From Pseudothermotoga elfii DSM 9442 = NBRC 107921 (lineage in GTDB: Bacteria > Thermotogota > Thermotogae > Thermotogales > DSM-5069): a stretch of 64,000 nucleotides of DNA. Where the stretch lies: assembly GCF_000504085.1 (NCBI RefSeq), contig NC_022792.1:1578001-1642000 (forward strand), given 5' to 3'. The position numbers were made by a program, and so were the translations under genes. The notes under the pieces are model-generated. The model searched no databases. It was given only the letters and a program-made list of their open reading frames with translations, and had not been told where the DNA came from. This document shows positions 36,367-39,339 of this stretch, piece after piece; within the stretch, counting starts at the first letter, position 1, and each line of letters starts with the position of its first letter.

Positions 36367-37221
36367 ATGAAAATACTTTCGATCGAAGGCGGAGGAACAA
36401 CTTTAAAGGTGACCCTCGTGAGAAATGGAGAGGTTCTTCAAAGAGCTACTTTCAGCAAAGGAACGAACCTTTCTGCAATTTCAGAAAAGCAACTTGAGGA
36501 AACTATAGCAGAAGTTGCAGGCTGGTCAGGAGAGGTTGACGAGATAAGGGCAGCATTTTCTGGCGCTGGAAGTGAGGAAAGAAAAAAAATCCTGCTTGCG
36601 GTTTTGAATAAATGCTTTCCCAATGCTAAAATAAGGATCTTCACAGATGCTGAAGCAGCCCTCTGGGCATGTTACGAAGGGAAGCCTGTAACCGTAGTCA
36701 TAGCTGGTACAGGATCAATTGTCATGGGAATAGACAGCAGTAAAAATATCTTCAGGGCAGGAGGATGGGGACATTTGTTTGATGACGAAGGAGGAGGATT
36801 CAGTATAGTTTGCAAGTTGATTAGACAGGCGTTGAATTACAGAGACGAGCTCATAGATTACGATCCAATTTTTGATCAACTATTGAGTTTCTACGGAGCA
36901 AAAAAAATAGAAGATCTTGTGGAGCTTCAAAGATACAATGATTTCAAGCAAAAAATAGCCTCTTTCACAAAGCACATGAAGCTAACTCCGCTATCAAAAA
37001 AAATCATAGAAGAAGAAATAGAGGTCCTCGCCAAAAGGACCTTCCACATAATCTCAAAAGTGAATTCCAAAAAGCTTTATGTACATGGAGGCATGTTCAG
37101 TATGGATTACTTCTATCAAAATTTTGCTGATCATTTTAAAAATATAGAAACCCGCAAAATCGAAAGAGATATCGATTTGCTACTCGCCGTCAAGTCTCAT
37201 TTTTTACTGGGAAGCTATTAA
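36367..37221 (+). CDS. BadF/BadG-type ATPase, probable amino-sugar kinase
   Basis: A 284-residue ASKHA-fold kinase. The phosphate-1 motif is SIEGGGTTLKVTLVRNG, then SGAGSEERKK, and the adenosine region AGTGSIVMGIDSSKNIFRAGGWGHLFDDEGGGF, as in N-acetylglucosamine and MurNAc/GlcNAc kinases of this family. It is divergent from the Opp/AnmK operon and shares the promoter gap, so phosphorylation of an amino sugar from imported cell-wall material is a good inference. A second family member is encoded at 52296-53243. Confidence 0.82.
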   Translation: MKILSIEGGGTTLKVTLVRNGEVLQRATFSKGTNLSAISEKQLEETIAEVAGWSGEVDEIRAAFSGAGSEERKKILLAVLNKCFPNAKIRIFTDAEAALWACYEGKPVTVVIAGTGSIVMGIDSSKNIFRAGGWGHLFDDEGGGFSIVCKLIRQALNYRDELIDYDPIFDQLLSFYGAKKIEDLVELQRYNDFKQKIASFTKHMKLTPLSKKIIEEEIEVLAKRTFHIISKVNSKKLYVHGGMFSMDYFYQNFADHFKNIETRKIERDIDLLLAVKSHFLLGSY

Positions 37222-37237
37222 TTCAATATATGTTCTG

Positions 37238-37479
37238 AAAAATTTCAACAAAGATTCTGCAGTTCATCTCCATCTTCTGTGAGGATGAATAGCAGTTGAT
37301 GAATATCTGGTTCGGTATACAATAAAAGCAGGGCAGGAATAGCCCATTCACGCCTGTAGAGATTGGACCTCTACAATTGGAAACACAGCCCTGGTAGCAA
37401 GCCTGGCCAGTGAAACAGGAAACCTCCACCTCCTTAGGTGGATGGTAAAGCTGTGAAAATCTTTGTCAGTGAAATTTTT
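37238..37479. ncRNA. Putative structured RNA of unknown class
   Basis: This 242-base stretch between two convergent genes is closed by a long helix: 37238-37256 pairs with 37458-37479 as 10 plus 9 bp, with a CAG bulge. Inside are several hairpins: TTCATC/GATGAA (37263-37289), GGGC/GCCC (37331-37345), GTAGAG/CTCTAC (37356-37374), CCTG/CAGG (37402-37419) and TCCACCT/AGGTGGA (37425-37442). CACAGC (37384-37389) pairs with GCTGTG (37450-37455) around the last two. The transcribed strand cannot be decided; T runs occur at both ends. SRP, RNase P, tmRNA and common riboswitch signatures were not found. A 68-codon Cys-rich reading frame on the minus strand covers the same bases. Confidence 0.55.
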
Positions 37480-37508: not shown

Positions 37509-38954
37509 TTATTTGAACGCCAGCTTTTGCACTATGAATTTCAATTTTTCGCCGTTTTCAAAGTTCTGGATCAATTCATGCAACATATCTCCTTCAGCAC
37601 TGTTTATTGTATACTGAATAAAAGAAAGATCAATGTTTTCAAAAACAACAGAGGCATCATGTTGAACAGTATTTTTTATTATTTTCTCTTTCTCTTTTAG
37701 AACTCTCAAATCCTGCATTTTTCTGTTCTGCATAAATGTTCCACGCTTTGGGATAAATGGATTTGCAGAGATTTTTACTCTGTAGCCCATGCGCTTTGCT
37801 TTCCTGACGAACCATCCGATTTTCTTCAAATCAGACTCTTCTTCCTCGTCAAATCCATACATGAAATACATTTTAACTTCTCTGAAACCAGCCTCGGAAG
37901 CTACTACTAATGCGCTTTCTATCTGCTGGTCAGTGAAGTTCTTTCCAAGAATTTTCCTTATCTTTTCACTTGCAGATTCCGGAGCAATCGTGAAAGCATG
38001 TTGACTGCGCTTCAAGAAACTGACGAATCGCTTACTCAATCTGTCAAGCCTTAGAGAAGAAACAGACACTTTTATACTATTTTTTTCGAGCCAAGATAAC
38101 ATTTCTTCGAGCCACGGGTAATCTGTCACATTTGATGCAATCAATCCGACAGAACAGGTTTCTGTATGCATGATTAGCCTCTTTAAAGTTTCTATATTAA
38201 GAAACCTTGCCGGCTTTCTCAAAGCGCCCATCATGCAAAAATTACAATTCCATACACATCCACGTTCTATTTCGATGAGCAATCTATTTTTGAATTCTCC
38301 GTGCGAGAAAATAATCGGACTGGCTGGAATGGTAAGATTCAAATCGCTTATTTTTGAGATTTCTGACTCCTTTTTTCTTAAAACAGGCACAGATGCAAAA
38401 TGAAGCTCAGCCATTTTCTCAACCAATTTTTCGCGTGAAATATATTCGAGAACTGAGTCCAAATTTTCAACCATTGGTTCAAAATCACCGTGAAGAATCA
38501 CATCTGCAATAATATCAAACACAGGGAGTTTCGTATATGTCAAAGCGCCACCAAAAACTACCAGAGGGTCAAATGGTCTTCTATCTATATTTCGTATTGG
38601 AACAGATTTCTTTTTAAGGATTGAAATAATATTCAACAAATCGTTTTCAAAGTTCACCGCAAAAGCCCATATTGGAAACTCGTCGAGTGGTGTCAGAGAA
38701 TCTATAGAATAGAATTTAACGAAATCATCATGATAAAAGAATCTTTCACATCTAACATTTTCAATTTTATTGAACAGTTTCCAAACTATGTTAAATCCGA
38801 GACTTGAAGACAGGACATTATACGAATTTGGAAAAATTAGGGCAACCCTCAGGTCGCCCTTCAAATCAATTTTTTCAACATTCTTTTCACTCAGTTTAAA
38901 CTTTCTGACAATGTCAAACTCGCGAAAAGATTTACTATCACGTGGTCTTCTCAA
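37509..38954 (-). CDS. B12-binding-type radical SAM protein (uncharacterised)
   Basis: About 481 residues. The N-terminal 180 or so resemble a cobalamin-binding Rossmann domain (RVALIFPNSYNVLSSSLGFNIVWKL) without a DxHxxG motif. The radical SAM core has CVWNCNFC (C-x3-C-x2-C) in the middle, then FTIAPESASEKIRKILGKN, a motif of the elongator/methylthiotransferase-like HemN-B12 subgroup. The substrate is unknown. The TTG at 38954 lies six bases after CAGGAGGA and is preferred to the far upstream codon at 39026. It overlaps the thioesterase gene by 17 bases. Confidence 0.82.
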   Translation of the reverse strand: MRRPRDSKSFREFDIVRKFKLSEKNVEKIDLKGDLRVALIFPNSYNVLSSSLGFNIVWKLFNKIENVRCERFFYHDDFVKFYSIDSLTPLDEFPIWAFAVNFENDLLNIISILKKKSVPIRNIDRRPFDPLVVFGGALTYTKLPVFDIIADVILHGDFEPMVENLDSVLEYISREKLVEKMAELHFASVPVLRKKESEISKISDLNLTIPASPIIFSHGEFKNRLLIEIERGCVWNCNFCMMGALRKPARFLNIETLKRLIMHTETCSVGLIASNVTDYPWLEEMLSWLEKNSIKVSVSSLRLDRLSKRFVSFLKRSQHAFTIAPESASEKIRKILGKNFTDQQIESALVVASEAGFREVKMYFMYGFDEEEESDLKKIGWFVRKAKRMGYRVKISANPFIPKRGTFMQNRKMQDLRVLKEKEKIIKNTVQHDASVVFENIDLSFIQYTINSAEGDMLHELIQNFENGEKLKFIVQKLAFK

Positions 38955-39339
38955 TAGAAATCCTCCTGAGGTAGTTTCTTGACACAACTGCTCTGACAAA
39001 CTCCATTTCCAGGACCTTTGATTCACCTTTCATAATAACTCCCCGCATCTTTATTCTGTTATCCTGTATGTCAATCACTTTCACGCCAACTGCAAGTCGT
39101 TCTGAGACGTGAACTGGTGAAATATGTCTTACATCTGCAGCTATAACAACAGACACCTCGTTTTCATCGAGAAATGGTTGAATCATTTCATAAGCAACAT
39201 GAAACACTAAAGCACTAAGTCCAGAAGTACTGGCATAAGAAAACATTGCCATCTCCTGATCTTCATTCCACAGGCAGGATTCGTCAACAACTCTTTCAAC
39301 TGTCTTGCTCTGACCCCGCAGCAGCTCTAAGTTTGTCAT
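38938..39339 (-). CDS. Hotdog-fold acyl-CoA thioesterase-like protein
   Basis: 133 residues with a single hotdog domain: YASTSGLSALVFHVAYEMIQPFLDENEVSVV, then AADVRHISPVHVSERLAVGVKV, similar to the fluoroacetyl-CoA thioesterase FlK group. The substrate cannot be assigned. It overlaps the 3' end of ftsH by 44 bases and the next gene by 17, so these genes are tightly coupled in one transcript. Confidence 0.75.
   Translation of the reverse strand: MTNLELLRGQSKTVERVVDESCLWNEDQEMAMFSYASTSGLSALVFHVAYEMIQPFLDENEVSVVIAADVRHISPVHVSERLAVGVKVIDIQDNRIKMRGVIMKGESKVLEMEFVRAVVSRNYLRRISIEKTT

Follow-up and report, generated by a model that had tools for sequence, protein, structure and literature searches.

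A probable TnpB-less IS200/IS605 mini-element with an omegaRNA scaffold between convergent genes of Pseudothermotoga elfii

Related elements and anatomy of the locus

Remnants of IS200/IS605 transposons that have lost their transposase have been described before. A PATE-like element of Halanaerobium hydrogeniformans, approximately 271 nt long and located beside intact IS605 copies, lacks tnpA and is described as a left-end (LE) hairpin fused to the tnpB 3' end plus the complete right end (RE) (PMC7290912, section 3.8). On Borrelia plasmids, free-standing IS605 stem-loops likewise persist without a transposase (PMC2775950). In the IS200/IS605 TnpB system, the reRNA or omegaRNA has a scaffold formed by the tnpB 3' end and the RE, which ends at the transposon border and is followed by a guide derived from the flank (PMC8612924, PMC10278001).

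The intergenic stretch 37238-37479 of the window (the whole 64,000-nt stretch of P. elfii DNA analyzed here) combines these parts. Positions 37249-37453 are very probably a decayed copy of a ~205-bp TnpB-less, non-autonomous IS200/IS605 mini-element (PATE/MITE), which consists of an LE hairpin, the degenerate relic of a tnpA promoter, and a 126-nt omegaRNA (reRNA) scaffold that is also the right end (Table 1). These positions therefore hold a mobile-element leftover of a kind already known, and no new large structured RNA class, since an element of the same anatomy has been presented for H. hydrogeniformans (PMC7290912, section 3.8). That element is described there as DNA and not analyzed as RNA, whereas the present analysis covered several copies, covariation within the scaffold, and retained promoter sequence. 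The Borrelia stem-loops are short (PMC2775950), whereas the element in the window comprises an LE and a complete omegaRNA. Unlike the reRNA/omegaRNA of IS200/IS605 (PMC8612924, PMC10278001), the window copy has neither a nuclease gene in cis nor the terminal TTCAC.

Table 1. Features of the stretch between the two convergent genes, in window coordinates.
Feature	Position	Strand	Basis or remark
Whole TnpB-less IS200/IS605-derived mini-element (very probable)	37249..37453	+	Two dispersed siblings; left boundary approximate, right terminus diverged
Closing helix, left arm (flank and first LE bases)	37238..37256	+	Absent in siblings; outside the conserved RNA
LE imperfect hairpin, type read by TnpA Y1 transposase	37257..37295	+	Conserved in both siblings; homologue in parent
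Degenerate sigma-70 promoter TTGATG-16-TACAAT from the parent's tnpA promoter	37296..37323	+	Aligned with parent
TnpB omegaRNA (reRNA) scaffold = transposon right end	37328..37453	+	Covariance model match
omegaRNA helix 1 (GGGC...GCCC)	37331..37345	+	Family consensus structure; both-side changes at 6/6 pairs
omegaRNA multibranch closed by CCTGT/ACAGG	37352..37419	+	Helices 2-4; both-side changes at 20/23 pairs
RE hairpin CCTCCACCTCCTTAGGTGGATGG	37423..37445	+	Aligns with the RE hairpins at tnpB loci
Degraded RE terminus TAAAGCTGTG	37446..37455	+	Alignment; both siblings, the parent, and almost every related right end have ...TTCAC
Flanking bases, putative guide if an omegaRNA is made	37456..37475	+	Analogy with reRNA anatomy (PMC8612924, PMC10278001)
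Closing helix, right arm, wholly downstream of RE	37458..37479	+	Possibly host terminator of the convergent genes (inference)

The stretch lies between a BadF-type kinase gene (36367-37221, plus strand) and a radical-SAM gene (37509-39026, minus strand), a convergent arrangement that the earlier note had read correctly. Searching this genome with the DNA of the stretch recovered two further near-complete copies, at G000:C1:1531083 (80% identical) and 1341818 (83%), with different flanks, such that three dispersed copies (the window copy and the siblings L002 and L003) are surrounded by unrelated sequences. It also matched in part where a tnpB gene ends (1483105), and in two relatives the tnpB 3' ends gave comparable matches. 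Other relatives and position 1961483 gave matches with E above 0.001, which were taken as chance or coding. An empty site was sought in genomes of the same genus and family and none was found, synteny downstream of the kinase gene being absent there.

The tnpB gene at 1483105 belongs to the one intact tnpA-tnpB element of the genome, whose right end matches the mini-element and which is regarded as the parent. Pfam identifies its products as a Y1 transposase (PF01797, Y1_Tnp) and a TnpB protein (PF01385, OrfB_IS605, and PF07282, TNB domain); the intact Y1_Tnp gene occupies G000:C1:1481632-1481994, and its product is the putative mobilizing enzyme. The LE hairpin of the window is homologous to that of the parent at L073:1519-1542, and the hairpin together with the sequence up to the scaffold aligns with the parent LE at a quality reached by 1 in 5000 shuffles. 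Neither tnpA nor tnpB lies between the LE hairpin and the RE of the mini-element, and no TnpB-coding match was found in the window. Both genes having been deleted, 4 bases now separate the promoter from the scaffold downstream. In the parent, the tnpA promoter (TTGACA-16-TATAAT) matches the consensus at 12/12 positions and its homologue in the window at 9/12, although the window hexamers alone are not significant against shuffles (p_shuf 0.26). Mean promoter scores are 8.75/12 in TnpB-less copies versus 7.70/12 in tnpB-linked copies.

Immediately before the intact tnpA-tnpB element, two copies of the same LE-type hairpin enclose a broken minus-strand HNH-endonuclease gene (within L073:600-1560, G000:C1:1480600-1481560; HNH at L073:973-1422). 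This gene is perhaps an IscB/IshB remnant, the IscB identity being an interpretation with no Pfam result behind it.

The omegaRNA scaffold and its decay

A covariance model (R1) was built from eight tnpB-linked right ends, namely those of the parent element, two Thermotogae relatives, Caldanaerobacter, and two Caldicoprobacter species, and the window copy and all TnpB-less copies were excluded from training. Searched against the 64-kb window, R1 gave 37328-37453 on the plus strand as its sole match (69.9 bits, E=4.6e-15), covering the whole model (positions 1-127). Across the genome, the three best places were the parent (109.8 bits), L002 (91.4), and the window copy (69.9). A second TnpB-less type came next with its two copies (51.5 and 44.1), and L003, the truncated sibling, scored 31.1. 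In a survey with R1, the RNA was present in 37 of the 103 genomes of the class.

The alignment of 41 family members points in the same direction. Under the family fold, 92.6% of the cells are paired versus 29-45% when the structure is slid along the alignment, compensatory changes on both sides occur at 29 of the 32 pairs, and the covariation score is 0.382 versus 0.141 in shuffled and at most 0.082 in slid alignments, where the slid control overstates the contrast somewhat because the alignment was fitted to the structure. Column by column, the window from GCAGGGCAGG to the GGTGGATGG hairpin tracks the tnpB right ends, including GCCTGTRGAGATTGGACCTCTAC and GGTAGCAAGYCTGG. The R1 match and the family covariation thus identify the RNA component of the stretch as a TnpB omegaRNA/reRNA scaffold that shares both its sequence and its fold with the right ends linked to tnpB. 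The proposal of the earlier note that a structured RNA is encoded here is borne out, and the RNA lies on the plus strand.

Whether the window copy still works is a separate matter. The most likely reading of the sequence is that it is a decayed, omegaRNA-derived sequence with no present activity, because the TTCAC terminus and two scaffold bases (a 2-nt deletion after helix 1) have been lost and the promoter is weak. In L002 an intact border is followed by the guide, whereas in the window copy the terminal TTCAC is replaced, and L002 appears to be the better candidate for activity. It is accordingly unlikely that the window copy is a functional, trans-acting omegaRNA gene still guiding the single cognate-type TnpB of the genome. 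Such a gene would be consistent with the recognizable scaffold (69.9 bits), the promoter remnant in register with that of the parent, and the cognate-type TnpB itself; against it stand the damage to the terminus and scaffold and a left border of TTCAA, unlike the TTGAC and TTGAT of the siblings, although neither the exact left boundary nor the target motif is certain. The first 16 nt of the putative guide match exactly nowhere else in the genome, and at two mismatches they match 7 genome places, on the other strand, versus 1 for a backwards-pattern control.

The closing helix and alternative explanations

The earlier note had described a large RNA closed by a 19-bp helix and containing many small stems. 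The closing helix, with a 3-nt bulge, is present in the sequence, as are the CACAGC/GCTGTG pair (37384-37389 / 37450-37455) and the small stems. The claim that the stems exceed chance held in part: the 242 nt fold more stably than dinucleotide shuffles on both strands (z -3.97), but without the closing helix z is an unremarkable -1.78, so that the excess stability is due to that helix. The fold z-scores of the siblings are +0.08 and +1.46. When conservation of the helices was examined in L002 and L003, both the closing helix and the CACAGC/GCTGTG helix were absent from each sibling, and the GCTGTG arm is confined to the window copy, at the position where the TTCAC terminus is expected. Pairing between the two flanks is as good in 0.55% of shuffles for the window copy versus 71% and 55% for L002 and L003; the duplex beats shuffles in the window and not in the siblings, and is therefore locus-specific. 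Its arms form a 19-bp imperfect inverted repeat that flanks only the window copy, the left arm entering the LE and the right arm lying beyond the RE.

One account of these arms has the element co-opted by the host, either to terminate transcription of both the kinase and the radical-SAM gene or to act on the stability of their RNA, and takes the closing helix for a host terminator that served as the insertion target. Arms bearing an A-tract and a T-tract do flank the element between the convergent genes, and the flank duplex is better than 99.5% of shuffles. However, no canonical terminator was found on the plus strand, both arms are rich in A and T, and the left one holds 7-8 LE bases, which would be unexpected in a host terminator, such that this account has only a small chance of being correct. 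As to where the helix came from, a former host terminator and a template-switch duplication are both guesses.

A new large structured RNA class, closed by the 19-bp helix and unconnected to transposons, is very improbable. The low fold z-score would agree with it, and an Rfam scan, as the earlier note had anticipated, returned no family at the gathering score and only chance matches at permissive thresholds. However, 126 of the 242 nt are TnpB omegaRNA and most of the remainder is LE, neither enclosing helix recurs in the siblings, and most of the folding signal disappears with the closing helix. The conserved RNA is the omegaRNA, at about 37328-37453 plus a flank-encoded guide, in place of the large closed structure. 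The apparent orphan structured RNA is thus a transposon guide-RNA scaffold that Rfam overlooked here, and a covariance model of the kind used can separate such transposon remnants from genuine new RNA classes.

The 68-codon minus-strand frame (GTG start, eight cysteines) that the earlier note gave as an alternative does exist, yet a gene for a cysteine-rich peptide can practically be dismissed, as the frame has no Pfam match, carries an in-frame stop in L002 and stops or frame shifts in L003, and lies in sequence already explained as LE and omegaRNA on the opposite strand.

TnpB-less elements and a possible role in trans

The anatomy of the mini-element suggests how it may have arisen. An internal deletion would have removed tnpA and nearly all of tnpB, sparing the LE hairpin, the region of the tnpA promoter, and the complete omegaRNA/right end, and TnpA of the parent could have mobilized the product in trans as single-stranded DNA. 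With the promoter directly before the scaffold, copies with an intact right end could transcribe an omegaRNA from the former tnpA promoter, with flanking chromosomal sequence as the 3' guide. This RNA would load TnpB of the parent in trans, and cutting of the empty site would lead to the element being kept, a retention model described for TnpB in cis (PMC8612924). Searches of the open-access literature found no account of omegaRNA mini-elements that lack TnpB and act in trans, and no priority is claimed.

A distant Thermotogae genome (G070) shares this TnpB-less design, with copies at different loci that are 99% identical over 228 bp. Its elements, at L103:1399-1627, L103:2568-2751, L136:900-1127, and L138, are up to 99% identical and have different flanking guides; the aligned copies include the LE, TATAAT, an intact scaffold, and the TTCAC terminus. 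This genome also carries two tnpB-bearing copies and Y1 transposase genes. Near-identity at different loci suggests that mini-elements of this type are, or recently were, mobile, and they may supply omegaRNAs in trans. A broader but tentative possibility is that TnpB-less promoter-omegaRNA mini-elements form a recurrent mobile class of Thermotogae that parasitizes resident TnpB in trans; the window copy would then be one of its ageing members. If this were the case, each mini-element copy would make its own guide and be retained without the cost of a nuclease gene. In other Thermotogae, TnpB-less copies that retain an intact scaffold make both trans guide supply and transposon retention testable.

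Further apparent TnpB-less cases were observed at L110, L120, and L104, the upstream sequence available for L104 being short. A second TnpB-less, omegaRNA-like type of ~172 nt is present in P. elfii at L094:1423-1594 and L095:1500-1673 (G000:C1:2042115 and 848639); its two copies are 86% identical, and one adjoins an apparent 5S rRNA gene. Sequences related to this second type follow tnpB fragments in another genome (G006). In the same genome (L075:540-2404), a long CRISPR-like array with the repeat GTTTGAACCCTACCTATAAGGAATGGAAAC abuts a decayed tnpB with a well-preserved omegaRNA.
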